A stretch of DNA of 64,000 nucleotides from Watersipora subatra (taxonomy: Eukaryota > Bryozoa > Gymnolaemata > Cheilostomatida > Watersiporidae): contig NC_088715.1 in assembly GCF_963576615.1 (NCBI RefSeq), forward strand, positions 65,113,981 through 65,177,980, read 5' to 3'. Position numbers and translations under genes: made by a program. Of this stretch, positions 6,363 to 33,800 are shown piece by piece. How positions within the stretch are numbered: position 1 is the stretch's first letter; each line of letters starts with the position of its first letter. The notes beneath the pieces were generated by a model. It was not told the origin of the DNA. It did not search any database and saw nothing but the letters and a program-made list of their open reading frames with translations.

Positions 6363-9300
6363 CTGCAATAGACAATGTCAAAGGGTTCTGGTTGTATTAT
6401 GTTAGAGGCAAAATAGTGTGGGATGTTGTCGCTAAAATTAAGGGAGGCAAGAAGCTATGCTGAAGATTTTGTAATAATTATAAACCATCTGTTACTCTTA
6501 AAACTGCTAGAGTAACATCTGCAAACTGGGTCAGAACTCTGATATGACTGCGAATATAATGTATGTACTGATAACTCCAGATGCAGTGTGATATAAGCAG
6601 TGAATTGCAGTCAGTTATTGCTGGTCCCTACCATGGTAAAGGAGCCGAAAAAGTTTCTCACCTAAGGTGCCATTCATTGTGGTGGCCACTATGGCTCCGT
6701 CAAAGTTTGGGTAGAATTTAACAACCTTAGCGAGAGCGATGGAGGCAGCTTCCGAGGGAGCCTTACCCATAGACATCAGGGTGACAGTATGATAACTAGA
6801 GAGTCATACATAAAGGTGACAACATTGTTTTATAAAAGAGCAGAGCATGATATAGAGAACAGTGAATGCCATGCCGGTGAAATGACCTTCTGTGAACATA
6901 GATGCAGTCAAGTGACTAGCATTTCATGTGATGAAAAAGATTCAAGAACTAAAGGTTTTCCTCACGTTGGCAGCAGCCTCATCATGACATCACCATCTCC
7001 AGTTGCAGCTGCACCCCCAACACCTTGCTCTGCATATGCCCCAGCACCTGCTATTGGGCTGTCACCTACTCTCCTATCAATATAAACAAACACCTGCTAC
7101 AAGGCCATCGCATATTTGCCTCTCAGCTTGTACAAGCACTTGTTACAGGGCAGTCACACACTGTTCTACTAGTTGGTACAATATGCTACTACAAGACTGT
7201 TACATAATTTTCTACAAGTTTTCACAAGCACCTGCTACAAGCCTGTCACATATTTTCTTATCAGCAGCAGACATGATAATTGTTACAATGATGTTAACCA
7301 ACTCCATGCAGCAAACATTTATATATAAGCATCATCTATAAATCAAATCAAATTTTGGAAAAGCGCAATGAAATCGGAGTTAGCCTTATTTCGACGAATT
7401 AAATAATAAAAAATAGATAAAACAGTGCAGCAGACTCGTCCGTCGTTCTTTCACATTTAAAAGTATTCTTTATTTCCAATTACTTCTTTTAACCATTAAA
7501 TTTAAGTGGGTTTTTGAGGCAATCAAAAGTGTAAAACGCAAAAACTCTTATGGTATTATCAGAAGGTAGACTTACCCAGGCACTTTATGATTTAGTCCAT
7601 TGGTGGAAGTACCTGCTGCGATGTGTCCTTGGTTGTCAATAGCTATCATGCCTATTGTGTCATGATTATATTGAGTAACCTGGGCAGTTCGCCATGTACA
7701 GCCCTCTTCATGATGAATGGGCGTATACGGACCACAGGAAGTCCGTGAATCAGGAGATACATTCTGTAACAAAAATCAGCAATCCTGATTGTAGGGCAAA
7801 TTAAAGCTTTGATGTCATTGAGTTTAACAAACCTGCTGACTAAAGCAACCAAAACTTTTGTGGAGAATCATAAAGGACATGGTCTTCAATCAACAATGTC
7901 AAGGTTGAATTATCATCATCATACATGTAGTGACAAACGAGCTTTCACCAAGTTTGTAATTTTGGTTATTATTAATCCTAATTAGAAAGAAGCTTTTAGC
8001 TAGAAGTGCGATCATGACACTGATGTAAACTGGTGAGCAACGCATATAATACTTCTAATATTTGTGATGCTGCCTGCTAAACAGTCTCTAGCTAAAAAAC
8101 AAACGTAACTATAAATTTAGTTAGTTTTATTAGTAGAGTTTTATAGTAGTGGAGTACACAGTATAAGGCACAGAACTCAATATATCTATGATGGTGCGTT
8201 TACACTGGCCGATTTTGTCGTGCACAGACAAATTTGATGAGTCGGTGTCGGTAGGTGTGAACAGAAAGATCGGTGTCGGCACCGATCTGAAAGTCGGTGT
8301 CGGAGAAACCCAGCAGTGCCCGGTTGCACCGACAAATCGGACGCTTATCAGCCAATCAGAAGCTAGGAGCCTCTGATTAAATGAGCCTAGGCTTTAATGA
8401 CAGTGCTAAGTTTATGAAACGAAAGGGCTAGGTTTAATGAGAGGCTAGGAGACTGTCATTAAACTTTCCCTCGTTCTCTTTTTAATAGTGAACCAGCATG
8501 GCTAGCAACGATGTGAACGCGAGAGTACCAAAAAATCAAGTTAGCTCTTTAATTTAAATTAATTAAAAGTGAATAGCCAGTTGTACGACTACTACTAGTT
8601 CTACTACTAGTACTACTGTAAAGGAATTTGCAGGCCCTTGGCACGATCTAGATTATGTCATACAGAAATAAATTGCGTGCGATTTCATTCAATGTTTTAT
8701 TAGTGATGGAAATTCACTAGCCGAGGAGCGTACGGCCATATGCTCTGTCTACTAAGTGAGCGTTGCTCCCTTATATACAATAAAATTGCCCGTTCCGGCT
8801 AACAGGACCGAGTGAGAACACCGGCTAACAACGTTTAAATGGCCAATAATTAGGCCCGCTAGTGCGTTGATATGACAACATAAACGACGACAATTGATAG
8901 CGTAATTAACGAGTAACAAGGCCAACAATAAAAAGAGAATAAAAAGGACAACCCATATAATAAAATATTTACAGACATCAAATATATACAAACAAATAAT
9001 TACAAGAAGTGTAAAGTGTTGGCCCGGCGTCCACCACACTACTTCTACCACAAATATACATTCACCATTCAATCTTCTTCATTATTCATTTTATTTATTA
9101 TAATTACTCGGACGAAAGAACTGTACGTACAGTTCTTTGCTCGGATTTTCATTGCCCCATCATTCATTCATTGCTTGGCATTCAGTAGTTGCTTCTAGTA
9201 GTAGGAGCAGTAGTAGTGTAGTACTAGCATATAATTTTCCACATCAAGCGTGTTGATTTTTATGTGTACTCGTCTTCGCGTGGTCGGGTGAAGGTCAGAA

Positions 9301-12300
9301 CGGCGAAACGCTGTGATTGGCTGTTGGTACAGACAAAAATCGTTTGATCGTTGCAATGTAAAGGGGGAGTCGGTGTCGGTACCCATGCGTGAAATGTCGG
9401 AGGTACCTGTCTGAGTCGGGGTATTGGCAGCTAATTGAAGTCGGTGTCGGCCAGTGTAAACGCACCATGACAAGCACTGGCTTTAGCATACAATCAACAG
9501 GAGGCCCAACAGAAGCATGATCTTGCTACGGAGTAATGGCTGATAACTCCAAGTCTGTCTGCTATGATAAGACAGCTTCACTATCAAATCCCAGCAACTG
9601 ACTTGTTATGATGGTTGTTAGCTGATATGTATGACTGTATCACCTGGTACATCAACTGTATCAGCTAATATAATGACTGTATCACATGGTACATCAACTG
9701 TATCAGCTAATATAATGACTCTATCACCTGGTACATCAACTGTAACAGCTAATATAATGACTGTATCACCTGGTACATCAACTGTATCAGCTAATATGAT
9801 GACTGTATCACCTGGTACATCAACTGTATCAGCTAATATAATGACTGTATCACCTGGTACATCAACTGTATCAGCTAATATAATGACTGTATCACCTGGT
9901 ACATCAACTGTAGCAGCTAATATAATAACTGTATCACCTGGTACATCAACTGTAACAGCTAATATAATAACTGTATCACCTGGTACATCAACTGTAACAG
10001 CTAATATAATAACTGTATCACCTGGTACATGATGACAACAGTACTATCAGCAAAATGTACACTAAGATCACTACACAGCCTGGTAATACAGATATATTAC
10101 CTGTCTGTAATTTGGTTGGCAATTATTCTCCTTCCACTCCTTCTCAAGCTGCCTAGACTTGTTCGTAGAAAGATCGGTCTCATTGAAGCCCATCTCAACA
10201 GCAAACCTTAAACAGAGACAGCATATACTCTCATTCAAGCCTATCTCAACAGCAAACCTTGAACAAAGACAGCATATACTCTCATTAAAGCCCATCTCAA
10301 CAGCAAACCTTGAACAAAGACAGCATATACTCTCATTAAAGCCCATCTCAACAGCAAGCCTTGAACAGAGACAGCATATACTCTCATTGAAGCCTATCTT
10401 AACAGCAAACCTTGAACAGAGACAGCATATACTCTCATTAAAGCCCATCTCAACAGCAAACCTTGAACAGAGACAGCATATACTCTCATTAAAGCCCATC
10501 TCAACAGCAAACCTTGAACAGAGACAGCATATACTCTCATTAAAGCCCATCTCAACAGCAAACCTTGAACAGAGACAGCATATACTCTCATTAAAGCCCA
10601 TCTCAACAGCAAACATTGTACAGAGACAGCATGTACTCTCATTAAAGCCCATCTCAACAGCAAACATTGTACAGAGACAGCATGTACTCTCATTAAAGGC
10701 CGTCTCAACAGCAAAACTTGAAAAGAGACAGCATATACTCAAAAATTAACCGCTCGACTGCTATAACCAGCAAAATATCTCAGCTTTTCAAACGAAGGGC
10801 TTCCATTGGAGGAAAGAAAGTCAGATCTTCAGGGCGACTGCATGTGGCGGGTGAGGTCTCATAGTAAACATCAGACTTAGGAAAATGAGTAGCGTGTGAG
10901 ATTGTGCGTAAACATCTATCAATTGGATTTGTCTATGATGGATACATGTACCATGTGACGCACATTTGAGAGAGCATTAGTTTCTTTTTACCTCCATCCA
11001 TAAAGTTGGTGACAGGGTTAGACATGACACAAGGTAAGACATTTTAGTCAGGCTTGCCCCAGCTGCATCAATACCTACATTGGTTATGTAATAACACAGA
11101 GCGGTGATCGAGTAGAATCAGTATAATGCCTAACATTGGAATTTGAGAGCAGATATAATGAATTATATAAAGCAGATATAATGCGAGCAATTGAAACTGT
11201 CTCAGTATTAACAGAGAACGATATCATCACAATGCAATATGTAATGACTTATTTAATACATGAACTTAGCACTACCTATAAGACATAGATGAGAGTGCAT
11301 AGGTAATTTCATTAGCAATATTATTGAAATATAAATTCAAGCTGCTACAATCCATCTTTGCTCTTACGTAGGCAGTTTAGCACAATATGTAGGAGTTGTG
11401 ATACCCTTGATTAAGCTGACATGCATCAACCTGCCACATGAGTAACAACATGATTTTCCTACTGTATAGCCAGATTTCCTACATACGCAGCAGAGTGAGT
11501 TAGACTGATTAAACTTAAAACTGATTAAACAGTTAAACTTGATTTCCAGCATACAATTAGGCATGTCTGGGTAGTAAATCTTGAGCTACGGAAAGCTTAT
11601 ACAAATCAGAAAAGCTTATATTAGGGGCAATAGTGGGTGAACCCATGTGTGAGGTGTGAAGACCAATGTTTGAGGTGTGTAGACCCATGTGTGAGGTGTG
11701 TAGGGCCATGTTTGAGGTGTGTAAGGCCATGTGTGAGTTGTGTAGACATGTGTGAGGTGTGTAGACCCATGTGTGAGGTATGTAGGGGCATGTGTGAGGT
11801 GTAGACCCATGTGTGAAGTGTGTAGACCCATGTGTGAGGCATGTAGACCCATGTGTGAGGTGTGTAGACCCATGTGTGAGGTGTGTAGACCCATGTGTGA
11901 GGTGTGTAGACCCATGTATAAGGTGTGTAGACCTACGTGTGAAGAGTAAAGACCCAACCCGTTTTACCATCATAGCAGAATCATCTTCTGAGAAATCTCA
12001 TATCTGAGGCGCTCAACGAACATCAGCAATGGAAAGCGTTGCAATCTATAGCTTTTTTGGGCAAGTACCGGTATATACAGTAAGTCTGACAGAGTCAGGC
12101 AGTCTGACAGTCCAGTAGCTTGCAGTATCTACATTAACTACCCATTGTGGTGGCATATGACTAAGAGATCTCTCTTGACCTCAGTCGATGAGGCTACTTA
12201 ACAAACATATACATACTCAAACACATTATATAATTCAGTGTCTCACCGGTACTAACTACTTGCCAACTCACCTGGTTGCAGACTCACCCACAAGAAGGGT

Positions 12301-15300
12301 GTGTGTCGTGTAGGTGAGAACTGCTCTTGCCACAGACATCGCTTCCTTCACTCGGCGCAGACCACCCACAGCTCCAACGTCATGAGTGACCCTGATAATC
12401 AAAATAACATGACTCGGTAACGTACTCTCCTTCTACAGGCTAATCTAAATAATAGGTAGTTACTGTTGTCACAAGCACTGTAGTTATATTCTACAGTGCT
12501 TGTGACAACATGTAGGACAACAAGTAATCAGTCGTTGTCTCAAGTTTAGAGAAACTAAACTCACACTTACCCATCCATAATCATGGCATCTAAGGTTGTT
12601 TCTCCATTTTCATCAGGACTTCCGCCATAGCCAACAGTGCCATCACACTGGTCCACCTCACATTGGCTGCATCCTGACTCTACTGCATCTAATGCTGAAC
12701 CTCCTTTCACCAAAGCATTCCAGCCTGACACACAAAGTGCAATGTGCTCATCAGGTATGATTGGTAAGGAAACACACTTAAGAACCTGTTTTGCCTGGCA
12801 ATAAAAGCTCAACACCATAAGTGTTGAGCTCTTGAGTGCTTCTCATTGGTGAAATGCCATGAAGGGTGTGTGTAGTTAATGCTTTATTTCTTTTAAACAG
12901 GCAGCGTTGCAAATATAAAAGGCATCACGGAATGCATTAAACCAAGTCCGGGTGGTTAACAATATTTTCGTAAACATTCTTTGGCAATGTTTAGTAAGCA
13001 GAATATCAAATGGTCTTCAAATGTGTATAAAAAATACAAAAACAATGCGGACAAGATGGTTGGACAGAGCAGAGGTCCAATTGCAGAGGGTAGAATTGCA
13101 TTTATTTACCACAAAAACGTAGTGCTAGTGTTGACCTTAAGCATGTTCCAAAGAGCTGTTTTAACACTTGAAATACTTTTATCTTCCTTATGTGCCCATA
13201 AGGATTGGCAATGACTTCCTACAAATAAATGTAGGATAATGCCAATCAACCAGCTAGCAATCGCCATCGCCAGCCATAAGGCGCCACCCAGCCAATGGCT
13301 AGGTGACTCCTCATCCACTACCCTATTAGAGTTGTGGATGTAGAGGGACCTAGCCAGACACTAGTGGCAACACTCGGCTAGCTCGCTCGCATGATACAGC
13401 AGCAAACATGAAAAGTTGAAAAGCTGCAAAAGTGACCCAGTTCAACCAAAGAAGTAACCTAGCCGAGGTCCACCTTTTGCTGGAGTTGCAGCAAGAAGGG
13501 GCACGTTCGTAAGGACTGTCCTAATCAGAGGTTGACTCAAAGAAATGGTAGAGCATGGCAAAAGTAGCGCTTGCTGCTGGTTGCACCAGAGCCCCCTGTT
13601 TCCCAACACAAGAGCAAGATGACCCAGAGTCCTTTGAAATTGACAGATGGATGGATCTATCGTGGAAAGGCTAGATGATGCAAGGGCAAGGCAGAAAACA
13701 CCTTTGTGGCCACTCGCAATTACTATCGGCCCTTATATTGGCCCAGCCACAGTGGGGCTGCAGAACTTGACCAAACATACGTCTCCACACCTACCTGTGA
13801 ATGAACAGGTTCAAGTTAGAGATGAGAGATACTGGAGGGGCCTTTTTAGCCTCACTTCCAATGACACATGGCCAAGAAACCAGGCAGGATACCTGCCTTA
13901 AAAACGGCAGGACCGATCCAAAACCGGCTAAAAGCTCCAGCTGCCAGACTAGCTGGACCTTCACTCCAAGAGCGGACGAAGCCGGCCCGGTGGAACCATT
14001 CATGGAAGTTCGTACTGGCTTCATTTTCGGCAAAAAATTCCAAAGTCTTCTTTAAAAACTGCAGGACAAAACTTTACATGACCCAGGAGAGCCAACTTGA
14101 GGCTGTACAACAAACTTGTAAAGTAAACAAAATTTTGACTGGTTGCCCGGAATTGTAAAGGGCAGGCTGAAGGAAAGCAACAGCCGCAGGCTGTTGGCAG
14201 ATGGAATGCGATTACCATTTTTCGAGGTAATCCAGCTTCCCATTCATCTGTGTGGTATAAACATGGAGAAAGTCTTTGTGGCGATTCACATCAGTGAGGA
14301 CGACATATTGGGGATGCCAGTTTTGATGGCTCACAAGTGTTCTTTGGAGCTTGATCAGCTCATGGTCCGAGTGGATAGAAAGCCATTGACTGGTATGGAC
14401 AGACACGGTCGCCTGCTGCACACATGATGACGATGAGATGGTAATACTGCCCTGAAGAAAAACATGTCTACAGAGCGGAGCCCCTCAAAAATGGCATTTC
14501 GACCAAGCCTCAAAAACTGGTCTGCATCTATGATATTGACCAAATTGATAAGGGGTGTTGACTGGCCAGCAAAACCCTGAAGAGTGCCAGAGAAGGAGAA
14601 CCTGGCAGCTTTTCCAGAATAGAGATGCATGGGTCAAAGCGATGCAGGCTATGAGATATCACTGTCGACAGCGACACGAACTCTGCTGAGCAGGGCTTCT
14701 GATGGAAAAGATTAGCTGGTTGGAGCATGAGGCCTGGCAGCACAGGGCTTAGGTAGCACAGGCACAGGGCGGCACACAGCTGGCTCTTCCACCAGAATTC
14801 TAATTGAAGAAAAGTGCTTCCAATGGGGAGTGTGTGGTGAGAGCCACCCGGCCCCATGTCCTGGCCAGTTCTCAACTCGACCAAGCTACCAGAGAACGAA
14901 AAGACTGGCCTGGTATGCAGTAAAGGAGGCAAAGTTTCCTTCACCTTCATACATATATAGAGAGGAATGGCACATGCGAGAAGCAGAGCACCTTTGTGTC
15001 TTTTCTATATATGTGCTTCATTGTATACGCTGATATACAAATACATGTATATTTAACTACCACTGTGCAGTTATTCTGAAATCTGAAGGAGTTTCCGAGA
15101 GTTCCTTTACAGTATTTTGATGTGCTAGTACTGTGAAATCACAATATTGCTAAATTCACAGTTATGTAATACTGTTGTATAGAAGTACTAGCAAAAGCAG
15201 GTAACATAATGAAGAAATGCCTAAACCACCGGAAATATACACAATAAACATGGCAACCTAATACATCAGAGAACCATCAGAAGAACATTCATCATATACT

Positions 15301-18300
15301 AATCTACAAGCAGATTAGAAATCTGATATGGAAGTTACTCATGAAAAAAAAATCAATTGGCTTGCCAAAAAACCATCAAATGAAATTAGACCTCAACCAG
15401 ACACGACTAAAACAATTGGAGTCGGTTATCAATTCCAATCATTACACTCTCATGATGTTCTTAATTAGTTACCCATGATCTGCTACATAAAGAACAGAGC
15501 CTGAGCACCTAAACACCTTCTCACAGACGAACAGAGATGTCTATAAAAAAGAACAGCCTCAGTCTCTTTCCTGAAGGCCTGCTGAGGCTCTCTTTTTCCT
15601 AAGGGCCTGCTGAGGCTCTCTCTTTCCTAAGGGCCTGCTGAGGCTCTCTTTCCCATGCTGAGAATCTTTCTTTCCCCCTGCCTGCTGAGGTGCTTTCCTC
15701 TCTTTGTGGAGCCTCCCTCTCTCTCTTCCCTTTGCCTGTAGAGCCACTTTCTTTTCTCTCTGCCTGCTGAGCCTTTTTCCTCTGCTTGTTGAGCCTCTAT
15801 TTTTTCCCTGTTTATCGAGCCTCCTTCTCCATCATCAGCTGAGCCTCTTCTACTTCACTATCTGAACTGCCAAGCTTCATTATCTATGAGCTGTCGTGAA
15901 TCTCATTTGACTGTTGAGACTCGCAACTGTACAAAACTGAGCAATGAACATGGACAACCATTCGACTAAGGGTGTAACTTTTATTGGCTATTTTAATATT
16001 TTGTCATTAATATTGTTTAGAGTTTTGTTAGTTAGGTATTTTTATTGTTTGACTTATAGAATAAAAAAGTGCCTATTATTGGTAATTATCAGTATTGCTT
16101 ACAATAGTTTAACGCTTTCACTGGTACCTGAACCAGTAATAATCAATTCAGTTGCCACAAGCTAAGTAAAAGTGCACAAACTGAACATGGTCAAAAGAGA
16201 ATAAAATAACAAAGAAGATTGTTGTTTGTTTATGTTTTATAGCTGAAACATAAATTACTAGAGCGAGCGTTGAGACAGTATATTTTTCATATCAGTTCAA
16301 TATGACAGCTACAACAGGAGTAACCAAGCTTTTAATCACACCATAACACGTATTATCAACAGCTGGCAAGCCAAGCTAGAACAGCAAAAAAATGCCACAT
16401 AAACGAGTAAGCTATAATTACATTACACTAGAAATAAGCTATGTAAAGCTTGACAAAAGGACAATAATATTTCAACACTCCCACTAGGTTACTGATTTTG
16501 TAATATCAAGTAAGTCCCATCAGATTTAGTAATTTTGTGAATCTCTCATGTGGTATCAGTTTAGTCAGGATGTCAGCTACCATACTATCAGTAGGGCAAT
16601 ACTCTAAACTAATCTGTTTGTTTACTACAGCTTCTCTCGTGAAGTGAAATTTGATGTCTATATGTTTTATGGAGCGATGTCCATTAGAATTTTGTGCGAT
16701 TTTTATGGCGGCTTGATTGTCAACCGTAATCTTGGTTGGTTCAGCAGATGCTGATAGACCAATGTCGGCGATGAGTTTATTCAGCCACATTGCTTCTTTA
16801 GTACCATAGAAGAGTAAAATATATTCATATTCAGCCGTAGACACTGCTACCACATTTGCCTTTTGCTTAACCAGCTGATCAGCGCACCAGATAGTAAGAA
16901 TATGTTTCCAGACGTAGAGTGTCGATCATCCAGATCTCCTGCCCAGTTAGCATCAGTGTAGCCAACCACTTTGTTATTACTAGATCGGTGATATGTGATT
17001 CTGATGTCGAATGATCCCTTGAGGTAGCGTAATATGCGCTTTTCTGCTGTTAGATGAGCTTCTGTTGGGGCCGCACAGTATTTAGAGACTGCTCCCACTG
17101 CATGAGAAATGTCTGGACGAGTTGCTATAGTTAAATATAAGAGACTTCCCACCATCGCTTGGTAACTCTTCGGTTGCACAGGCTTGCTAACACCATCATC
17201 CTTTACGAGCTTAACATTCACATCGGCTGGTGTTGGCACCGGTTTTGCATTTTCCATGCCAAATCGTTTTAGAATCTGTAAAATTTTGTGATTTTGATGT
17301 AAACTAAGAGTTTCCTCCTCTTGTTTAATGTTGATGCCCAAGCAGTAATGCAACTTTTCAAGATCTTTCATTTTGAAACGTTGCCAAATTTTGTTTGACC
17401 AAGCTCATCTCTTGTTCAGTGTCACTCATGATAATGAGATCATCAACATACACAGCTATAACTGTTTTAACATTATCATTATCTCGAACATAAACACAGG
17501 AATCTGCACCAGATCGTCTGAAATTGATTGATTTGAGATATTTATCTAAGACGGTGTTCCAACATCTTGGTGATTACTCAAGTCCGTACAGCGATTTGCG
17601 AAGTTTGCATACTAGGTCGGCCTGTTGTGGTTCAATGAATCCTTCCAGTTGAGTCATAGAGATATCCTCTTCCAGGACTCCGTTCAAGAATGCAGTGTAA
17701 ACATTCATCTGATGTATACTCAATTTGCGCTGTAGCGCATATGCCAACAGCGTACAAATAGATGTGAATTTGACAACTGGCGCAAATGTTTCTTCATAAT
17801 CTATTCCAGCCTTTTGTGCATATCCTTTGGCGACTAAACGCCCCTTAAACCTGTCTACAGTTCCATCAGCAGCGAGTTTGGCTTTAAACACCCATTTAGA
17901 TCTTATTGGCGTTCTACCTGGAGATAATGGTACAAGGTCCCATGTATCATTTTCTATTAGAGATTGGTATTCAGAATTAGCGGCAGACAGCCACTCCTTA
18001 GCCTCAGAACTTCCTCTTGCTTGCTCAAATGTTTGTGGTTCAATAATTTGACAAGCTTGATATGCAGTATGAGAAATTTGTGATGTTTGATCCGCATATT
18101 CGTCTAGGCCGCAATGTACAGGGGCTCTTCGTACACGATTAAATCGCCTCGGCTCTTCAACGATTTCATGTATAGTGTCCTTGTTAGCTTCTTGGGGTGC
18201 AGGCACAATAACGTCTACAGTGGCTACTGGTACATTACTTGATATCTCTATCTGACTCCCGAAGTCTGGCTCATTAAATACAACATCGCGTCGAACGATA

Positions 18301-21300
18301 ACCTTTCTAGTTTGCTCGTTGAACAATTTATAAGCTTTCGATGTGATACTGTATCCAATAAAGCGTAATTTCTCCGTTTTGATATCTAACTTTTGCCTCT
18401 TTTGATCTGGGATATGGGCATAGGCTGCGCATCCAAACACTCGTAAATGCCTAACATCTGGTTTCCGACCATACCATTTTTCGAAAGGAGTTATGTTGTC
18501 ATTGTGTGATCTAGTGGGAAGACGATTCCTAACACATACCGCTGTAGCAACTGCTTCAGCCCAGTATTCTTTTGAAAGTTTTGCATGAAACATCATAGCT
18601 CGAGCAGGTTCACCAAGTGTATGATTGAGCCTTTCTGCCACACCACTTTGTTCTGGAGAATAGGTTGAAGTTACTTTGTGACGAATTCCTAGTGTATTTA
18701 AATAGCTATTGAACTCGTTTGACACATACTCGCCCCCACCATCAGACCTAATAGTACCTATCTTTTCCCCTGAAAAGTTTCTAACTAGAACTTCAAATTC
18801 CTTAAATTTGTCAAGCACTTCAGATTTATAATGTAAAAAATACACAGCAGATTATCGAGAAAAATCATCAATGAATGATACAAAATATTTACTACCACCA
18901 ATCGATTCAGTCTCAAAAGAGCACACATCTGAATGAATTAATTCTAATCTACATTTAGATCTGATACCTCCCACTGAGTGAAATGGTTTTCGAGTCATTT
19001 TTCCTTCCACACAGCTCTCACAGAAAGAAATACTGCCACTTGGAATTTTGGTTCCCATTAATACATTGTTATAATTCAACTTAGAGTTGTTTCACTTGCA
19101 TGAGCAAAGCGTTTATGCTAAGTGCCGTACTAAGTGCTATACTGGCTCACAATCCAGAAAATAAACTTTATTCCTCATAGGACCCATAGCGCGTACTCTC
19201 TTTTGTTCATCCTTCAACCGACATCTACTTTTACCAAACTGGATAATTTTTCCTTTTTCGGTGGCTGATCTTACAGAAAACAAGCTTCCAGCTAGACTTG
19301 GCACGTGTAAGACGTCATAGATAATAGCCGTCCTACGAACTTTGCACCCTAGGTTGAGCATTACATGAACGTTACCAACGCCTATGGCATCAACTATGTG
19401 TCCATCACCCAGGCTGACTTTCTCCGAGGTATCTAAGGTATGGTACTCACTAAACCACTTACGGTAAGGTGTCATGTGACGAGATGCACCTGAGTCTATA
19501 ATCCATACTGAATTTTGTGTTGATGTAGAGTTTTCTACAACGAATGCAAAGTCAGTATTACTATTATCTGTTGATACTTGTTTTGCTGTGTTCTGCTGTG
19601 ATCTCTCTTGATTGTCTAGACAGTAACGACGAATATGTCCTTGTTTTTGGCAGCCAAAACATACCAAAGGCTGTCTCGGCCTGCTGTAATGTTTTTAGTG
19701 ACCAGAGCAGCATCGGGTGAGTGATTTAAGTTGCTTCCATCACGTTGCTTTTTTAGTCGTTTCTGCTCTTCATTTTTCAACGATTGCTGTACAAATTCTA
19801 AGTTTAAATCATCCCCTCAAGCCTCAAGCGCTGTTACTACGTTACTATAGCTGTCGAGAATGCTGCCTAGCAGTGTGACCACCTGATCCTCTTCATCAAC
19901 AGCTGCATTGATTGCTGCAAGTCTATCAGTTAAGACTTTCATATGCTTAAGGTGATGTTCTATAGTTGTACCTTCTTTCATAACACTTTGAAAGTACTGC
20001 TTTTTTAAAAACAGTTTGTTTGCCAAGGTATTTCGTTCAAAATGTGCTTGCAATTTATCTCATGCAGATTTTGCATCTGCACATTCTGTTACAAGATACA
20101 GTACATTGTCACCTACTGCAAGCACTATAGTAGAGAATGCTTTGCTGCAATTCTTCGTGAATGCAGATTTGACATCGGCAGCTGCATCATTTGCAGAAGC
20201 TTCTTCGGTACCCTCCACAAAACCATACAATTCTTTGGCTATCAGCAGATGTTTCATTTTGAATTTCCATGTTGAGTAATTGGTTCCCCTCAATTTGTCT
20301 ATCGACCATTTTTCCTCAGCCATTTCGAGTGATTACTCCAGAGGTATAATATAGTCTTTGCAACTAAATAATCCAGTTTTCCAACAAAGAGTCAAGCAAT
20401 AGTCAATCTGGTAACTGGGCCCATAACCTGTTGTTCGTTTATGTTTTATAGTTGAAACATAGATTACTAGAGCGAACGTTGAGACAGTATATTTTTCATA
20501 TCAGTTCAATATTAAAGCTACAACAGGAGTAACCAACCTTTTAATCACACCATAACAAGTATTATCAACAGCTGGCAAGCCAAGCTAGAAAAGCAAAAAA
20601 AGCCACATAAACCAGTAAGCTATAATTAAATTACACTAGAAATAAGCTATGAAAAGCTTGACAAAAAGGACAATAATATTTTAACAAATTCAACACTGAT
20701 GTTGTATGTAGATTCCGATTAATTACGTCTAACATAATCTCTCCCTAAAGACCTATGACAATACTTCTTCCCTCTAACTGCAAGTAAATTCTTAGACATA
20801 AATAGATCTCTTTTATAACTTTCAATGATGTTGTATGGAGATATTGCGAAAACAACATACCAAAAAGGAATACAGCCAGACCACAAGATAACCATATAAT
20901 ATGTACAAGTAGAACGACACCCAAAGACATCAAAAGATCCAATAGCTAGAAAACGGCAAAAGAAAATTAGGAACTTCAAAATTGGAGGAGTCACAGCAAT
21001 TAAACCGACCAACTACCATCACCAGGAAACCACCAAAGAAACATTTAAGACGAATCAAATAAGTATACATATACAGATCTACCATTCCTGTCAAACATGA
21101 CCTAGATATCAGGAGTAAGTCACAAGCTCCACCCTAAATGTTTACATCACATACGCCAGCTGAAGACTTACGCAAACAAGATATCTTCACACGCTTGACA
21201 TAAAGCATTGAACCTTAACACTCAACCTACTGCCACATGCTAACCATCCCACATGCCAGACACCTATAAAAGAGAACAGCTCCAATGACTCAGCCTCAAT

Positions 21301-24300: not shown

Positions 24301-27300
24301 GTCCAGCGATGGAATGATCAACAGAAATGGTTATGAGAGAAAGGTAGTGGAGTTTGAGAGAGAAGGAAAGCAGATACAGAAGAAGTCTGAGGAGAAAAGC
24401 CAAACGTGAGGCAGCAGTCACAGAGTTGGAGAATACCAAGGCATTCAGGGTAGCTACGCAGCAGTTAGCCAAGGTTTAGAGGAGGATTGCAAATAGTAGA
24501 ACTGCACCAGTAGAAGGTCAAGCTTAGCTAGACAGGTCTTGGCCTATGTCAATTCCTAGCTCTGTGGTGCCATCCTCTGTGCAGCCGATTATGGCCCAGG
24601 TGGAGATCTCTCACAGGCTGCTCGCCAATCCCGCCTCTATGGAGAGAGCGGGATGAAGACAGAAGGAACAAAACTCAAGGCCAGTTGAAGGTAGTGCAAG
24701 TAGTGGTGATGTTGGAGGTCAACTAGTGATGGTGTTGGTAATGATAGAGGTCACGGTGGTGGCGCAGGATGTAGAGGGCATAGCATGATGGGCGTGATAG
24801 CGGCTTGGACGAATTGATGGACCAGTCATAAGGAGCAAGGTAAACTACACCAGCAAAGTAAGTCACTGGATGAGTTAATGTGTATTTTTTGTCATGCGAC
24901 TTTCTGGAAGGTTTGAGGCCTGAAGAAAAAAAGAAGGGCAGGTTGTATAATCGGGTTAGTGGGCCAGGGCTACGCTAATGTCTTAGATCACAGCAGTTAC
25001 AGGTAGTGTTGAGAAGTTAAAGCACATGAATTATATAATTTTTTTATTATATAGTTCAATACATCAGAGTCTTGGCTTTCAAATGAGCCTATATTCAATA
25101 CACAAAAAATAATAGAACTACGAAAAACGGGGTGTCAAAAGTATGTTCTGCAAAAAATAAAAACATTTGGTTGCGGTTCCCACAATGTGATGTCATAATT
25201 GTTATTTAGCTTTAGGTAGTCGATCCCTTTCGCTGCCATTGAGGCTGCGCTTTTCTGTGACAAACCCAGAGAGCACTAACAATAAACTGGGATTCTAGAT
25301 AATCAACAACACCCGGGGATCGTGCTAACGCCCGACCAATACAAACACATGGTCTGGGTTAATTAATTATGCTTCAATAAATATACTGTAATTGATAAAG
25401 GTTATGAAATCACATCGATTAAATTGTGACCTGCAATTGCATGGCCCTAGGACTATATGTCAATCGCACTTTCGCAAGATCACGCAATGCTTGAAATTAA
25501 TTAGTCTCAGTCATGCCCCTCAACATCACAATAAAGAGAGAGGGCTAGTGCATAATATCATCGCGAAAACATAGTATGGTGCTTTGAATCTGAGTTATTT
25601 ATCATAGAAATAATCTGTACATGGAGAGCTAATGACACTGATTCTTTTGTCATCTTCATTGGTTACCTGGAGTTGTCCTACCTTCACCTGCCACTAGTGT
25701 CATTATCGTAGTTGATAAATAAAAGCGATAAGCAATAAAATAAGCGGTAAGAGCGCACAACGCCTAATATGAAAATTGTGACGTCACAATTTTCAAGGCT
25801 ATGCCATTGAACAATTCTGCGGTAGAGCTCTGGAGAAATCCTATAAACAACAACCAATGTCTGGCTCACCATGTCAAACAATGGCTCATTCGAAAGCCAA
25901 GACTCTGATGTATTGAAATACATGATAAAAAAATTATGTAATTTATGTGCTTTAAACGTAAAGTCAGTAACGTAGTAGTGATGGAGTAAAGGGAAGGTTA
26001 TAAAAGCAAGTGCAAGACACAAGGAAGAAAATGACAAAGCAATTTCAACACTGTTGTTGTATGTGGATTTGGATTAGTTATGCGTAACACAATTTCTCCA
26101 CATTAACCTATAACAATGCACACATGCATGTAATTCATCTAAGTATGTTAAGTGTGTTGCATACCAGGAGTCTCTCATGCGCCTGACTAGGAAGCCAGAT
26201 AGGCTTTAGAAGACAAAAAGTGAAATTTATAAACAATCTATTTGGGCATAGATGATGGCATGAGATGTCAGAAAAATTATTTAGACAGGTAAATGATTCG
26301 AGGAGTAGCTGCCAAGCAAGACTAATACTGAAACGATGTTTTTATCTTGGTTTCTCTAAAGTATAGAACAGGATTTACTCCAATGATTGACTACACATCC
26401 AGAGTCAATTGCCAACCCCAACCAAGAATTCTCGCCCCAACATTGACCTACATATCACCAAATGTTATAGTCTCTTGCGATAGACGACGATGAGAAGAAA
26501 GAGAGAGCTTTCTTCTCACCGTCGCCTATCGCAACGATTGGAGTACCCGTGTTATAAACAGTGATGTACTGCTAACCTTTCTTTAACCATAACTGTAAAG
26601 TTGAGATAAGTGGGTGTAGGTGACCAAGAGACGACACGCGACTCCACTGCCAGGTAGTGGCAGTTGGAACAGCTGGGGAGTGATGTAAGCCCCCCAGTGG
26701 GAGGCTTTGGTGGCGGGGCGAAGCCCCGCCTGCCAAAGCCTACAGGGCTTTAAAATCATGTATATGATATGATAAATGAGCACATCTGTACTCTATAGTA
26801 ATAAATAAGTTGAGGAAATAACAAAAATCAATGCCTTTGTCCTTTAGTACAAATGCTGACTGCCATTGGTTTGCTGTAATCTAATCTTAGCCTTTGTTGT
26901 AGACAACCAATTAGGATCACAATCTTGTCATGTTACATGACCATTACATCACTGTATTGTACTGCATCCTGCTTTTATATTGAATGGCCATTGAATGTCG
27001 ACTATAATGACATTAGTGTACTGGAATCAAGGAAATAGAGCTATAATTTACCTTGAGAATTGGCAAAGTCTAAAATTTTTTAATCTTAATTATAGTTATA
27101 CTTGAAAAACACACAAATTTTCTAACCATAACTTAGAGAGAGTTAGGGTATCACTACATCACTGGTCATAAACCCTATGTAATGATGAAATACTGACCAG
27201 TTTCGGTAGCTGTTCGAAAAGCCCACGTATTCACAACAATTTCGTTTGTATTTAAATTTTTAGAAAACTCTGCAGAGCACAATTCGCATGTTACTGCCCA

Positions 27301-27357
27301 CGATAACAAGAACAAATGACAGCAAATTGCTGTAAACCGATCCATTGGCGGTGGCAT
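6241..27357 (-). CDS. AGA: Aspartylglucosaminidase (N4-(beta-N-acetylglucosaminyl)-L-asparaginase), 8 exons
   Basis: Lysosomal Ntn-hydrolase that cleaves the GlcNAc-Asn bond during glycoprotein breakdown. Exons on the minus strand: 27357-27198, 12724-12571, 12391-12272, 10206-10101, 7763-7576, 7073-6966, 6795-6662 and 6362-6241. All junctions join in phase, giving 1092 nt and 363 aa (human about 346). Residues 1-29 look like a signal peptide. The autocleavage and nucleophile site is NHDTIGM with Thr216. Trp45, Thr234 (GTSTNG), Arg244 and Asp247 (GRVGDSP), and Thr267-Gly268 (AATGDGD) sit at a constant +10 or +11 offset from the human catalytic and binding residues as I recall them. The C-terminus ends VETVTLNC plus a short tail. 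Introns are GT-AG. Intron 1 is about 14.5 kb and full of retroelements. The start is Met1 (27357); Met5 is an alternative. It is head-to-head with GSR. Confidence 0.95.
6662..6795 (-). CDS. AGA: AGA exon 7
   Basis: Encodes [20 protein letters not shown] and [12 protein letters not shown], matching the family helix and strand before YGAAC. Acceptor CTCTCTAG|TTATC; donor TTAG|GTGAGA. Confidence 0.93.
6966..7073 (-). CDS. AGA: AGA exon 6
   Basis: Too short to stand out as an ORF. Encodes [21 protein letters not shown] and MMRLLP, the substrate-binding Arg/Asp and Thr-Gly region. Acceptor TTGATAG|G; donor CCAAC|GTGAGG. A 46-bp imperfect repeat starts at its acceptor end. Confidence 0.94.
7040..7262. 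repeat. Imperfect ~46-bp tandem repeat seeded at AGA exon 6 acceptor
   Basis: About five diverged copies, each with CACCTGCTACAAG-like starts and a CTnTCAG or CTATCA-like end. The first copy is the 5' part of AGA exon 6 plus its splice acceptor. The others lie in intron 5. Confidence 0.6.
7576..7763 (-). CDS. AGA: AGA exon 5 (catalytic Thr)
   Basis: Encodes [20 protein letters not shown], containing the threonine freed by autoproteolysis as the nucleophile, then STNG. Acceptor TGTTACAG|AATG; donor GG|GTAAGT. Confidence 0.97.
8192..9467. mobile_element. Non-autonomous inverted-repeat DNA transposon, 1276 bp
   Basis: Both ends carry the inverted repeat TGGTGCGTTTACACTGGCC. Direct TGA trinucleotides flank it (8189-8191 and 9468-9470), suggesting a 3-bp target duplication as in PIF/Harbinger-type elements, though three bases is weak proof. 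Subterminal AGTCGGTGTCGG motifs repeat near both ends. I see no transposase ORF. It lies in AGA intron 4. Confidence 0.75.
9631..10030. repeat. Minisatellite, 42-bp unit
   Basis: About 9.5 copies of a 42-bp unit containing ATGACTGTATCACCTGGTAC, in AGA intron 4, ending about 70 bp from exon 4. The 133-aa ORF across it is an artefact of the 42-bp period. Confidence 0.9.
10101..10206 (-). CDS. AGA: AGA exon 4
   Basis: Encodes [14 protein letters not shown] and NCQPNYRQ, matching the family's FAxxMGF...DLST...NCQPNYW region. Acceptor CTCTGTTTAAG|GTTTGC; donor CAG|GTAATA. The acceptor end of this exon is the apparent source of the adjacent 51-bp minisatellite. Confidence 0.95.
10207..10740 (-). 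repeat. 51-bp minisatellite carrying copies of the AGA exon 4 splice acceptor
   Basis: Eleven tandem 51-bp units directly abut AGA exon 4. On the minus strand each unit reads as the pyrimidine-rich intron end (CTGTCTCTGTTCAAG) followed by the first ~29 nt of exon 4 (FAVEMGFNE codons). Most units keep AG at the junction; the two with CTM have ACAATG instead. The unit is 17 codons and stop-free, so the whole array is open in the AGA frame. Confidence 0.9.
10741..11640. other. AGA intron 3, unique part
   Basis: AT-rich intronic sequence between two arrays, with no coding signal recognised. Confidence 0.4.
11650..11950. repeat. Minisatellite, ~21-bp unit
   Basis: About 14 copies of a unit like GTGTAGACCCATGTGTGAG in AGA intron 3. 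Overlapping ORFs in several frames are repeat artefacts. Confidence 0.9.
12272..12391 (-). CDS. AGA: AGA exon 3
   Basis: Encodes [20 protein letters not shown] and [11 protein letters not shown]. Acceptor GATTATCAG|G; donor CAG|GTGAGT. Outgoing phase 2. Confidence 0.96.
12465..12509. repeat. Perfect 19-bp hairpin in AGA intron 2
   Basis: Arms GTTGTCACAAGCACTGTAG (12465-12483) and its exact reverse complement (12491-12509) enclose a 7-nt AT loop. It sits inside the 179-bp intron 2, between exon 2's donor and exon 3's acceptor. Confidence 0.8.
12571..12724 (-). CDS. AGA: AGA exon 2
   Basis: Encodes [20 protein letters not shown] and [21 protein letters not shown], a hallmark block of the family. 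Acceptor TGTGTCAG|GCTGG; donor GG|GTAAGT. Confidence 0.96.
13430..14960 (+). pseudogene. Ty3/gypsy-type retroelement relic (gag zinc knuckle and protease fragment)
   Basis: Around 13472-13530 one frame reads [14 protein letters not shown], an intact CX2CX4HX4C zinc knuckle. Near 14150-14400 another frame has the protease-end pattern seen in gypsy polyproteins ([24 protein letters not shown], then HKCSLE). Frames are interrupted, and no reverse transcriptase or LTR pair was found. It lies in AGA intron 1 on the strand opposite to AGA. Confidence 0.6.
15470..16219. repeat. Dispersed repeat family A, copy 1
   Basis: Shares ordered blocks with 21236-21779: a CTATAAAA-type box followed by AGAACAGC, CCTGCTGAGGCTCTCT-like repeats, GAGCCTCTTCTAC, ACCATTCGA, and AAAAGTGCACAAACT. 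The layout resembles an LTR (TATA box, then body), but no termini could be fixed. It directly abuts the copia LTR. Confidence 0.6.
16220..16477 (-). repeat. Copia element 3' LTR (258 bp)
   Basis: Begins TGTTGTT and ends CAACA. It is nearly identical to 20429-20686, differing by roughly 13 substitutions and two 1-bp indels in my reading. Just inside it, read on the minus strand, is a purine-rich AGTGGGAG tract fitting a polypurine tract. Confidence 0.92.
16506..20323 (-). pseudogene. Ty1/copia retrotransposon gag-pol, broken
   Basis: Minus-strand order is typical of copia (integrase before reverse transcriptase). A gag start (20323-20060) is followed by an in-frame stop, then more gag (20053-19817). 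Next come a CX2CX4HX4C knuckle ([14 protein letters not shown]), protease motif [12 protein letters not shown], integrase pieces ([25 protein letters not shown]), reverse transcriptase ([20 protein letters not shown], then YVDDLIIM near 17440), and RNase H (YTDANWAGD). At least five interruptions separate open segments (19817-20053, 19137-19667, 18852-19079, 17574-18845, 16847-17371, 16506-16853), so it is not a working copy. It lies in AGA intron 1 in the same orientation as AGA. Confidence 0.93.
20415..20428 (-). other. Copia primer-binding site, initiator tRNA-Met anticodon half
   Basis: Directly inside the 5' LTR the minus strand reads GGTTATGGGCCCAG, complementary to the anticodon-arm sequence CTGGGCCCATAACC of eukaryotic initiator tRNA-Met. 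Drosophila copia is known to prime from a 5' half of that tRNA, not its 3' end. Confidence 0.8.
20429..20686 (-). repeat. Copia element 5' LTR (258 bp)
   Basis: Pairs with 16220-16477 and has the same length. No matching 5-bp target duplication is visible outside the two LTRs (AAGAT versus AATTC). Confidence 0.92.
20687..21779. repeat. Dispersed repeat family A, copy 2
   Basis: The right half (21236-21779) matches copy 1 block by block, including CCTATAAAAGAGAACAGC. The left start (ATTCAACACTGATGTTGTAT) matches the start of a third partial copy at 26041. It sits between the copia 5' LTR and the gypsy-type 5' LTR. Confidence 0.6.
21782..21997 (+). repeat. Gypsy-type element 5' LTR
   Basis: Begins TGTATAACCGGG and ends TTATACA or TATACAACA; the termini are short inverted repeats. 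It matches 24944-26038 and contains the uninterrupted GAGAAGTTAAATGAGAAG site that is split by an insertion in the 3' LTR. It is followed by TGGCGCAGCTGACAA, which fits a TGG-type primer-binding site. Confidence 0.75.
22250..24900 (+). pseudogene. Gypsy-type retroelement relic: gag, degenerate zinc knuckle, protease
   Basis: Segments 22525-22833 and 22796-23056 resemble retrotransposon gag ([29 protein letters not shown]). At about 23265 the knuckle reads [14 protein letters not shown], with the last Cys replaced. 23577-23846 has the aspartic protease motif [12 protein letters not shown]. No reverse transcriptase or integrase is visible before the 3' LTR, and frames are broken, so it is internally deleted or degenerate. 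Confidence 0.7.
24944..26038 (+). repeat. Gypsy-type element 3' LTR, split by an insertion
   Basis: 24944-25020 and 25956-26038 match successive parts of the 5' LTR. Between them lies the TTAA-flanked element. The purine-rich stretch GAAGAAAAAAAGAAGGGCAGG precedes it (polypurine tract). The right end is truncated relative to the 5' LTR. Confidence 0.75.
25021..25951. mobile_element. TTAA-flanked inverted-repeat element, 931 bp
   Basis: Imperfect terminal inverted repeats of about 70 bp begin AGCACATGAATTA and include ACATCAGAGTCTTGGCTTTC near both ends. The element is flanked by TTAA on both sides, and the paired 5' LTR shows the empty TTAA site. TTAA duplication is characteristic of the piggyBac superfamily, but the terminal bases are not the usual piggyBac ends. 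No transposase is seen. Confidence 0.8.
26041..26460. repeat. Dispersed repeat family A, copy 3 (left end only)
   Basis: ATTTCAACACTGTTGTTGTA and the following ~60 bp match the left end of copy 2. The rest is not clearly alignable by eye. Confidence 0.45.
26475..26534. repeat. 27-bp stem hairpin
   Basis: TTGCGATAGACGACGATGAG... pairs with ...TCACCGTCGCCTATCGCAA, 25 of 27 positions complementary, with a 6-nt loop. It is either a fold-back insertion or a small structured RNA; there is no further evidence. Confidence 0.7.
26703..26740. repeat. GC-rich compound hairpin
   Basis: GGCTTTGG and CCAAAGCC enclose GGCGGGGCGAAGCCCCGCC, an 8-bp stem with a GAA triloop stacked on a second 8-bp stem. It is much richer in GC than its AT-rich surroundings and lies in AGA intron 1. 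Confidence 0.7.
27198..27357 (-). CDS. AGA: AGA exon 1 (signal peptide, mature N-terminus)
   Basis: Encodes the hydrophobic signal sequence ([16 protein letters not shown]), then [15 protein letters not shown], matching the family's VVNTWPF...AT motif. The donor is ACTG|GTCAGT and the outgoing phase is 1. It lies 14.5 kb from exon 2. Confidence 0.9.
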
Positions 27358-30800: not shown

Positions 30801-33800
30801 TTTGCCTGTCGAGTGATTCATCAGGAATGTGCCGGCCCCCAGCTCATTCTACATCTCATCAATCAGGTTTTTTGTTTTAGTTAAAATTGCTCAGGTACTA
30901 TTGTTCCCTACCTCTCTTCGATGAGGTTCTGATTTGTACTTGAAATTTATGGGTAGCTATTCAGGTTCAGACAGCACTGCCCAGTCCATGATAGTATTGT
31001 GTCTATTACACATGTGAAGTTTGTGGTAATAGACAATAGTGTAGTTACTAGGAATTCTGGCTTTTATAAGTGTCAGTATGGGTAGTCTAACCTACTCTCT
31101 CAATTGTTCATTGCCCCAGCAAATAAAACCTTAGGCTAATGTAGAGCTACTCTCCCAATTGTCTATGGCTTCTGCAAACAAAAACGTGGGCTAATGTAGA
31201 TATTGTTGAAACAACTCCATGTCACACCTGCGCACTATTGTTGTCTTGTTTACTGTGAGTTTTGTGTTTTTCTGCAAACAATCTCCGATTGCGTAGCTTG
31301 TTTGGTCTGTGCAGCTCCTCGCCGCTCTCTTCTCTTGCTTACAGTCCGAGTGTATGTAGCTCATATTTGCAGTCAAAGGTTGAGGCAATACGGGGAGAAG
31401 CAAGGTTTATAGATGAGAAACTAGTAGAGGTGAATGGGGAGAAGTACACGGCTGATCACATTCTCATCGCTGTTGGAGGTCATCCTACCATTCCTAATAT
31501 TCCTGGCGCTGAGCATGCGATCACTAGCGATGGATTCTTCGAGCTCGAAAACTTGCCAAAGTAAGCCCCTGTTCCCAAGTTGCATTCATTTAAGCGTGTG
31601 ATTTAGTGCCTCACAGATTCTTGCCTTTACCACTTGTATGTTTTAGCCCACTGATGAGTCTGGCGTGGTCTCCGTCAGCTGTATGTTTATTTCAATGCAA
31701 GCTCGTAGTTGTGTCCGGTATTTTATGTCTTGTTTGCCTGCTGCTAGCATCACGGAGCAGGCAATTGAGGAATAATTCTTTATAATGGCGCTAACACCTC
31801 TGTCTTGTTTCCACTATTTACTTTAGAATTTGTTCTGGTATTTTGTCAATTGTTTTGTTCAGGAAGGCAGTCGTAATAGGTGCTGGTTATATTGCTGTGG
31901 AGCTAGCGGGTATACTGAATGCATTGGGTAGTGAGACCCATGCCCTCATCAGGAAAGACCAGGTCCTTCGCACATTTGATGAGACAGTCTCACAATTGTT
32001 AACCCAGGAGATGGTATCAGCTGGCATTCACCTGCATACACAGACTCAGGTATGTCACTATGTAACTCATTTCTACTTGTAGACAGACTCAGGTATGTCA
32101 CTCGTTTCTACCTGCACACACATACTCAGATATGCCTCCTTCTTGCAGGTGCTATTTAGACAAGACTTTCTCTAGCAAATGTTATTCAGACAAGACTTCC
32201 TCTAGCAGGTGTTATTCAGACAAGACTTTCTCTAGCAGGTGTTATTTAGATAAGACACTCTTTAGCAGGTGATATTTATATGCTGTTGCAAAGTATTGTA
32301 ACGCTTGTAAACAACTAGTAGCTATGTTGCAGGTATCAGAAATAGCAAAGGAGTCAAGTGGTCTGTTGACTCTCAGCACAAGCAAGGGCGTTATTGACAA
32401 TGTTGACTGCGTGATATATGCTGTTGGTCGTGAGCCGAACACCAAATACCTCGGCCTTGACAAAACTGTGAGTTTTGCGCGTGACATTTGATGACGGGTG
32501 AGCTGGACTTTAGAAACTTGTCAATATTACTTGCCTTCACTAGATACAAACATTTATATACAGGGAGTAGCGATGGACAGCAGGGGTCATGTTATAGTTG
32601 ATGACTACCAGAACACCAACATCTCAGGAATCTACGCTGTTGGAGATGTCATTGGTAAAGCCCTTCTCACTCCAGGTGTGTTATTACTATATAGAAACGC
32701 AATCTTACTGTTTCATAAAGGGCACATCTGCTCATTTTATTGATGCCTGATTCAGTGAGCATTTATTGACAGCCTTGCTTGCAGTTTCTATTCTCGTGTG
32801 TCTATTTACAGTTGCCATTGCGGCTGGCCGCAGACTGTCTCACAGGCTATTTAACAACGAGTCAGATCTGAAATTATCCTATGATAATATTGCTACTGTT
32901 GTCTTCAGTCACCCGTTGGTTGGTACAGTTGGCCTCACTGAAGGTATGTTAATATTCTATATTATATGTCTAAATTATACTACTGTTATATGCTATGAGG
33001 CTGGTCTCTAAGACGTGCCCTCCTGTCGTGTTCCATTTCTCTCAGGCAGCATTGCCGACACAGGTCAAGATGATAGAACTGTTTGTTATTCGAGTAGTTG
33101 ACACCTGTTCATGCTGGACAGTACGCTCTTACCAGTTGCGCATTAATTGTCATGTGCTGTATCATTGTCATGAATTTATGTAGTTGTTTTCTCTTGATCA
33201 TACTAAATGCTCATAGCCTACTACAGTGTTTCTCAAAGGTTGGCATGTGTTTTTTGGTAGAGTATAAACAATGACTTGCAGAAGTTAGTTATGCTTTTTG
33301 TTAGCACACATTGTACAAAGACTCTCTCAAATCTACACTCTAGCATTTAGCCATCATTCTTGGTGAGTCTGTGCAAGAATTGTAAGTACAGTGTACCTCC
33401 TGATTATGGTGTCCCTGTTTTACGGTTAATGAAGTTTGCCTTACGATGTTTTGTCCCCCCCTGTTACAGCAATTTTTTCTCGCCATACTGCATGAACAAA
33501 AGTGTCTCTCGAAATTCAAATTTGGCAGTCGGTATGCTGAATACGTCGGAATCACAAACATGCGGGTATCCTATTCAACGAAATAAAGTAGATTGTCTTC
33601 TATAGCAACATATGTTACTATAAGAGATGATCTACTCATATGTTACTATAGAAGATGATCTACCCATATGTTACTATAGAAGATGATCTACTCATATGTT
33701 ACTATAGAAGATGATCTACTCATATGTTACTATAGAAGGTGATCTACTCATATGTTACTATAGAAGATGATCTACTCATATGTTACTATAGAAGATGATC

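Follow-up and report, generated by a model that had tools for sequence, protein, structure and literature searches.

The AGA gene of Watersipora subatra

The window, i.e. the whole 64-kb stretch of DNA that was analysed (contig C8, positions 65,113,981-65,177,980), includes the Watersipora subatra genes coding for aspartylglucosaminidase (AGA), a lysosomal enzyme, on the minus strand and for glutathione reductase (GSR) on the plus strand. The GSR exons were located with a human query and their numbering is ours. The predicted 363-amino acid AGA protein matched the Pfam family Asparaginase_2 (E 1.8e-82) and human AGA 1apy_A (E 5.2e-68). The exons of AGA, together with the repeats that overlap exon boundaries of both genes, are listed in Table 1.

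The acceptor of AGA exon 4, an exon preceded by an intron of 2065 nt and followed by one of 2337 nt, reads ...CTGTTTAAG/GTTTGCTG, with the first exon base at 10206 on the minus strand, as had been proposed in a first-pass annotation of this DNA. The protein that results from splicing at this position aligns with the alpha chain of human AGA (1apy_A) with no gap over the exon 3/4 junction (.../GESATTFAQSMGF in the alignment text) and therefore the acceptor at 10206 yields a family-typical enzyme. The point at which any additional residues would be inserted is ungapped in the alignments to 1apy_A and 3ljq_A, the two inspected among 56 matches, and the nine residues FAVEMGFNE coded for by the beginning of exon 4 are aligned, also ungapped, to human FAQSMGFIN. 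This protein evidence points to 10206 as the main acceptor.

Table 1. Location of the AGA gene, its exons, and the boundary repeats found in the window. A slash marks the exon-intron junction; PWM, score with the position weight matrix.
Feature	Position	Strand	Score or basis
AGA gene, 8 coding exons, predicted protein of 363 aa	6241..27357	-	Pfam and PDB matches
AGA exons 1 to 8	27357-27198, 12724-12571, 12391-12272, 10206-10101, 7763-7576, 7073-6966, 6795-6662, 6362-6241	-	
AGA exon 3, donor CAG/GTGAGT, phase 2 join to exon 4	12272..12391	-	
AGA exon 4, 106 nt, donor CAG/GTAATA, first 29 nt are the exon part of unit 1	10101..10206	-	
Mirage array of eleven 51-bp units	10178..10740	-	TRF and unit dissection
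Authentic acceptor AG, unit 1, TTTAAG	10207..10208	-	PWM 5.1 (leave-one-out, own genes)
Units 2 to 8, seven intact alternative acceptors	10229..10585	-	PWM 3.0 to 5.0
First exon bases of units 2 to 8	10257, 10308, 10359, 10410, 10461, 10512, 10563	-	
Units 9 and 10, mutually identical, AG changed to AT	10586..10687	-	PWM -6.7
Unit 11, outermost, AG retained (TTTTCAAG/T)	10688..10738	-	PWM 2.4
Second mirage, decayed, 46 bp x 4.7, over the intron 5/exon 6 acceptor of AGA	7043..7258	-	Permissive TRF
Third mirage, GSR exon 5 donor CAG/GTATGT duplicated	32040..32139	+	

A minisatellite composed of copies of the intron 3/exon 4 boundary

TRF identified at 10178-10740 a tandem repeat with a period of 51, 11.0 copies, 95% matches, and a score of 986. 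All eleven units have the same structure, in which the last 22 nt of intron 3 are joined to the first 29 nt of exon 4, and the latter portion includes one base, the nine codons for FAVEMGFNE, and one further base. The repeat is therefore what has been called a mirage, the name given to minisatellites built from copies of an intron-exon boundary. The first-pass annotation had correctly described this unit anatomy but had extended the array to 10101..10740; its limits are 10178-10740, and nucleotides 10101-10177 correspond to the remainder of exon 4, which is read from the minus strand.

The real intron 3/exon 4 boundary is located in the 3'-most unit, named unit 1. The acceptor dinucleotide AG is present in units 1 to 8 and 11, i.e. 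in 9 of the 11, which define the authentic acceptor and eight alternatives. The two units that lack it, designated 'CTM' in the first-pass annotation, are units 9 and 10. Contrary to that description they are not the most distal ones, as the outermost position belongs to unit 11, which retains the AG. In unit 11 the base that follows TTTTCAAG is a T instead of a G, and its acceptor score of 2.4 is the lowest among the AG-bearing units. When compared to unit 1, the exon portions of units 2 to 10 are identical at 27 or 28 of the 29 positions, and that of unit 11 at 25; this level of identity indicates that the units are copies of the exon boundary rather than chance resemblances.

The number of changes with respect to the consensus in units 1 to 11 is 2, 3, 1, 1, 3, 0, 0, 0, 3, 3, and 4, respectively. 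Units 6 to 8 are thus identical to each other, unit 11 is the most changed, and unit 5, in the middle of the array, has three changes. Adjacent units share changes (9 with 10, and 2 with 3), which together with the identity of units 6 to 8 fits the prediction for tandem turnover. The array gave a single match in the primary assembly, which comprises 783.72 Mb in 239 contigs. The assembly tzWatSuba1.1 of this cheilostome bryozoan is described as including 240 scaffolds, the alternate haplotype being deposited separately (PMC12902671). The one-contig gap between both figures may be the mitochondrion; a COX1 search of the genome contigs produced no match.

Two other boundary repeats in the window

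A second mirage was found in the same gene, over the acceptor of exon 6, which starts at 7073. Its identity at lag 46 was 0.635, a value to be compared with 0.424, the highest that 1000 shuffles reached at any lag from 20 to 79, although the stretch used in this test had been chosen from the same data. An AG is found at three of its four intronic copy boundaries. The PWM scores of the four range from -8.8 to 2.2, and each of them would lead to an early stop if used. The third mirage is located on the donor side, in GSR. The exon 5 donor lies after nucleotide 32049, and a copy with the same nine bases lies after 32092, 43 bp downstream; a third copy, recognized by eye, is decayed and has lost the GT (CTCAG/ATATG). 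Reading through this duplication leads to an in-frame TAG. Neither of these two mirages was present in the TRF output at score 50.

A single 64-kb window of a bryozoan genome therefore includes three mirages, which represent both acceptor and donor sides and differ in their state of decay. Only the exon 4 array is frame-neutral, and it is also the longest and the best preserved. Since its two sisters are not frame-neutral, the tolerance of mirages does not depend on the reading frame.

Repeat background

The 32 boundaries of AGA and GSR were placed by sequence, and three of them are located in local repeats. For comparison, 300 random positions of the window yielded 63 such cases, and 300 drawn from 20 interior 10-kb samples yielded 33 (Fisher p of 0.16 and 1.0, respectively), using a score threshold of 18 that was picked after the values had been seen; when it was raised to at least 25 the counts were 1/32 boundaries, 55/300 positions in the window, and 25/300 in the interior samples. 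Repeats thus do not strike exon boundaries more frequently than the rest of the DNA. Minisatellites with periods of 10-100 numbered 62 in the 200 kb of interior sample, and tandem repeats accounted for 19.8% of the bases in the window versus 8.5% in the interior sample. About 376 kb separate the window from the end of contig C8.

Exons of other loci were also surveyed, taking the ends of the profile matches as exon ends in all 19 loci. The aldehyde dehydrogenase profile identified 13 exon loci, and the AGA family search six, of which four belong to the AGA gene described here and two to a second locus on contig C7. A repeat with a score of at least 16 overlapping the exon by at least 8 bp was found in none of the 13 aldehyde dehydrogenase loci and the two C7 loci. 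Four of 13 ADH_zinc_N matches were taken, and at one of them (L044) an array touches the profile match over its initial 9 bp; it was not counted because, as judged by eye, it stops within the acceptor's pyrimidine tract. This pyrimidine-rich array (CCATCTTGTCTC-like, located approximately at 961-1509 of L044) reaches the probable acceptor of the ADH_zinc_N exon and may constitute its polypyrimidine tract.

Frame neutrality and coding constraint

On the minus strand, an open frame of 224 amino acids runs from 10745 to 10071. As the first-pass annotation had stated, the use of a distal acceptor would produce no stop and would add 17 residues per additional unit with the frame conserved; this holds for all 11 boundaries when they are joined to exon 3, including the two that lack the AG. 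Three cysteines would be added with each unit.

The differences between units were compared with those expected without constraint. The 14 distinct changes with respect to the consensus include 12 nonsynonymous, two synonymous, and no stop, and the transition-weighted expectation is 0.75, 0.21, and 0.03, respectively. Without constraint the chance of finding no stop is 0.61 and that of finding two or fewer synonymous changes is 0.41, figures that with only 14 changes have weak power. This spectrum of changes, from a small sample, gives no support to coding selection on the array. An open frame was also rejected as a sign of function: among the 24 arrays of the window that measure 100 bp or more, five, one of them the AGA array, combine a period that is a multiple of three with a fully open frame in at least one of the six. 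A Pfam search with the raw frame of the array produced TMP_C and HARP barely above the cut-off and UBA and UBA_7 below it, none of which we believe. Taken together, the spectrum of changes, the frequency of open arrays, and the out-of-frame condition of both sister mirages indicate that the frame neutrality of the AGA array is probably accidental and without meaning. A used array would nevertheless also have its 11 boundaries in frame.

Strength of the acceptors

Acceptors were scored with a rough PWM built from the 16 acceptors of AGA and GSR, which assigns -6.6 to the accepted acceptor of AGA exon 7 when this is left out. By this small gene-derived matrix the acceptors of units 2 to 8, with scores of 3.0 to 5.0, are close to the authentic one, and the range for all the AG-bearing distal acceptors is 2.4 to 5.0 versus 5.1. 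Of the eight AG-bearing distal units, seven (all except unit 4) have a full match to the branch-point motif TTAAT upstream of their acceptor. On the other hand, the only candidate upstream of the authentic acceptor is TTGAA, at -29, within the exon-derived portion of unit 2. Unit 11 adjoins unique intron DNA with a TTAAT candidate at -30 and probably represents the ancestral position of the acceptor. As far as these scores and motifs go, no sequence feature compels the use of the acceptor at 10206.

In mammals, pairing across the exon is described as favored where the flanking introns are long, and in a mammalian survey the choice between alternative 3' sites separated by 20 nt or more leaned toward the upstream one, a tendency that long flanking introns only reduce (PMC9225289). 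This upstream lean, the scores of the distal acceptors, and the TTAAT motifs make the use of distal acceptors quite possible. We also considered single-unit mini-exons of 29 nt, extending from an acceptor to the donor-like sequence AGA/GTATAT. These are unlikely as the donor scores were 0.4 to 1.2, on a scale on which the 16 donors of the AGA and GSR models range from -1.5 to 11.7 (leave-one-out), although two real donors, those of AGA exon 6 (0.5) and GSR exon 9 (-1.5), score as low.

Origin of the array and alternative explanations

The explanation that we favor, with a probability of about 0.8, is that the array is a neutral product of slippage, a mirage minisatellite, and that splicing occurs mainly at the 3'-most acceptor, 10206. 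The array most likely does little. According to this model a segment spanning the intron 3/exon 4 boundary of AGA would have been duplicated in tandem and then amplified to 11 copies by slippage or unequal exchange. Exon 4 is the founder and the intron copies its derivatives, given that human AGA conserves the residues coded for by the exon. Once displaced into the intron, the copies are intronic and free to drift, and the expansion would have moved the exon away from an ancestral acceptor at unit 11. The enzyme would be produced mainly through the acceptor at 10206, which may be favored because exon 4 lies between introns of roughly 2.1 and 2.3 kb and its donor could pair with the nearest acceptor across the exon. 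The branch point serving the 10206 acceptor would then be located in the exon-derived portion of unit 2. Splicing to units 2 to 8 or 11 may happen at a low level, and its products would be in frame by luck of the 51-bp period. A neutral product of slippage was among the readings offered in the first-pass annotation and is the one that the evidence supports; the splice buffer, also proposed there, finds no support.

A less probable possibility, compatible with the neutral origin just described, is that the distal acceptors are used as low-level noise, giving in-frame products that are harmless or degraded and have no role. The nearly equal scores of the acceptors, the preference of competing 3' sites for the upstream one in mammals (PMC9225289), and the alternative transcripts described for human boundary repeats (PMC2812944) are consistent with this idea, although amphioxus mirages reportedly leave regular splicing undisturbed (PMC3087553). 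As part of the same proposal, a frame-neutral period may have let the AGA array outgrow its sisters. Frame neutrality is indeed seen just in the longest and best preserved of the three mirages, but one in three is no test and the exon 4 array may just be younger.

That the array serves as a source of functional length variation, as the first-pass annotation had suggested when it described a tunable source of protein length variants, is improbable. Regulated distal acceptors would add 17 residues per unit, so that copy number and acceptor choice would tune the length of AGA. The AG found in 9 of 11 units, the 11 stop-free, in-frame boundaries, and the distal scores near that of the authentic acceptor are what such a system would show, and a human IFI6 minisatellite reported to provide alternative splice donors (PMC4526556) and the boundary repeats that accompany alternative transcripts of human paralogues (PMC2812944) offer possible precedents. 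Against it, the units show no sign of coding constraint, with their 12 nonsynonymous, two synonymous, and no stop changes, and both sister mirages are out of frame. Furthermore, the insert would be placed in a conserved, gap-free region, with three cysteines per unit, of a lysosomal enzyme. The first-pass suggestion is accordingly not upheld. An extended version, a hypervariable frame-preserving acceptor cassette in which allele length and acceptor choice would determine the number of 17-residue additions while the exon-derived DNA would act as the branch-point region of its own intron, seems just as doubtful.

It is very unlikely that the array is a coding repeat within exon 4, spliced from the putative ancestral position at unit 11 with 510 additional nt. 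Unit 11 does retain its AG next to unique intron DNA with a TTAAT candidate, and the frame is open throughout the array, but this arrangement would put 170 residues, 30 of them cysteines, into a region that is gap-free in the family, the units have drifted at nonsynonymous positions, and unit 11 has the weakest of the AG-bearing acceptors by PWM. Finally, mis-assembly is common in tandem arrays, but an artefact is hardly credible here given that the assembly is described as HiFi-based with a consensus quality of QV 63.2, that 30.93 Gb in 5.33 million reads correspond to about 5.8 kb per read, ten times the array (PMC12902671), and that the units include distinct, ordered variants.

Comparison with known boundary minisatellites

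Among the open-access literature matches listed, mirages by that name are found only in amphioxus. Those described are in Adh3 and the globin genes BflGb6 and BflGb9 (PMC3087553, which cites Canestro 2002 as the original report on Adh3), as well as in the troponin C gene (TnC) and PGBD5 (PMC3902484). The copied boundary is reported to be the 3' end of the intron in BflGb6 and the other boundary in BflGb9, the unit of the Adh3 mirage measures 10-72 bp, the AG or GT is kept in many but not all copies, and inner units are in concerted evolution (PMC3087553). Haplotypes of BflGb6 with six and three units are described, and Adh3 data together with RT-PCR of the globin genes suggest that splicing is regular (PMC3087553). 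The AGA array has the same characteristics in that its units hold the end of the intron and the beginning of the exon of a real gene (11/11) and that the splice dinucleotide is found in many, but not all, copies (9/11). It differs in belonging to a bryozoan rather than to a cephalochordate, and the genes are AGA and GSR; moreover, with its 11 units it is longer than BflGb6, which has six and three, and the period is a multiple of three that leaves every copy in frame. While transcripts of the amphioxus mirages have been examined, the AGA array is known here from genomic sequence.

None of the open-access matches listed describes a bryozoan mirage, and the titles on bryozoan minisatellites do not deal with splicing; this is weak evidence of absence. 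The presence of three in one bryozoan window, on both sides of exons and at various stages of decay, suggests that mirages are a general by-product of minisatellite-rich genomes instead of a cephalochordate oddity. They constitute natural tests of how the spliceosome chooses among near-identical acceptors, and gene predictors may err at them.

A minisatellite in the human IFI6 gene (6-16/G1P3) was reportedly found by Turri in 1995 to give multiple splice donors. Two downstream repeat units of IFI6 have been reported to be used as donors (PMC4526556). As is the case for the AGA array, this minisatellite lies on an exon-intron boundary, and its repeats can act as splice sites. In recent human paralogues located in segmental duplications, variable boundary minisatellites with an average of 30 bp x 4 have been associated with new introns as well as with transcripts in which the repeat is either retained or missing, an alternative transcript retaining the repeat being described for 66% of the intron modifications (PMC2812944). 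The IFI6 repeats are on the donor side and their use is reported, and those of the paralogues, as described, lie in exons with the new introns inferred from transcripts, whereas the AGA copies are on the acceptor side, within the intron, and were read from the genome. As a consequence of the use of the IFI6 donors and of the alternative transcripts of human paralogues, boundary repeats should not be assumed to be always silent.

The Rogers model, in which introns are gained through tandem duplication of AG/GT segments (cited in PMC3087553 and PMC2812944), shares with the AGA array a tandem duplication over a splice site, although in AGA no new intron is evident. Intronic minisatellites have also been tied to multiple splicing decisions in Caenorhabditis elegans (PMC4039745); as described, these are regulatory motifs within introns, in contrast to the boundary copies of AGA.

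Other features of the two genes

Intron 1 of AGA is about 14.5 kb long and includes, at 16509-19694 on the minus strand, the remains of a Copia-like retrotransposon in which zinc knuckle, integrase-like, and reverse transcriptase-like frames were recognized by eye. AGA exon 1 (27198-27357, minus strand) is arranged head to head with the beginning of GSR (from about 27651, plus strand), leaving a gap of approximately 0.3-0.4 kb; because of this layout a shared promoter is possible. Two other arrays lie near exons. In one intron of GSR, a 28-bp array with 27 copies (33609-34371, plus strand) ends 24 bp upstream of an exon whose first base is 34396. In intron 4 of AGA, right after exon 4, a 42-bp array with 9.5 copies (9631-10030, minus strand) repeats the donor-like sequence CAG/GTGATA on the gene strand and has an open frame on each strand.
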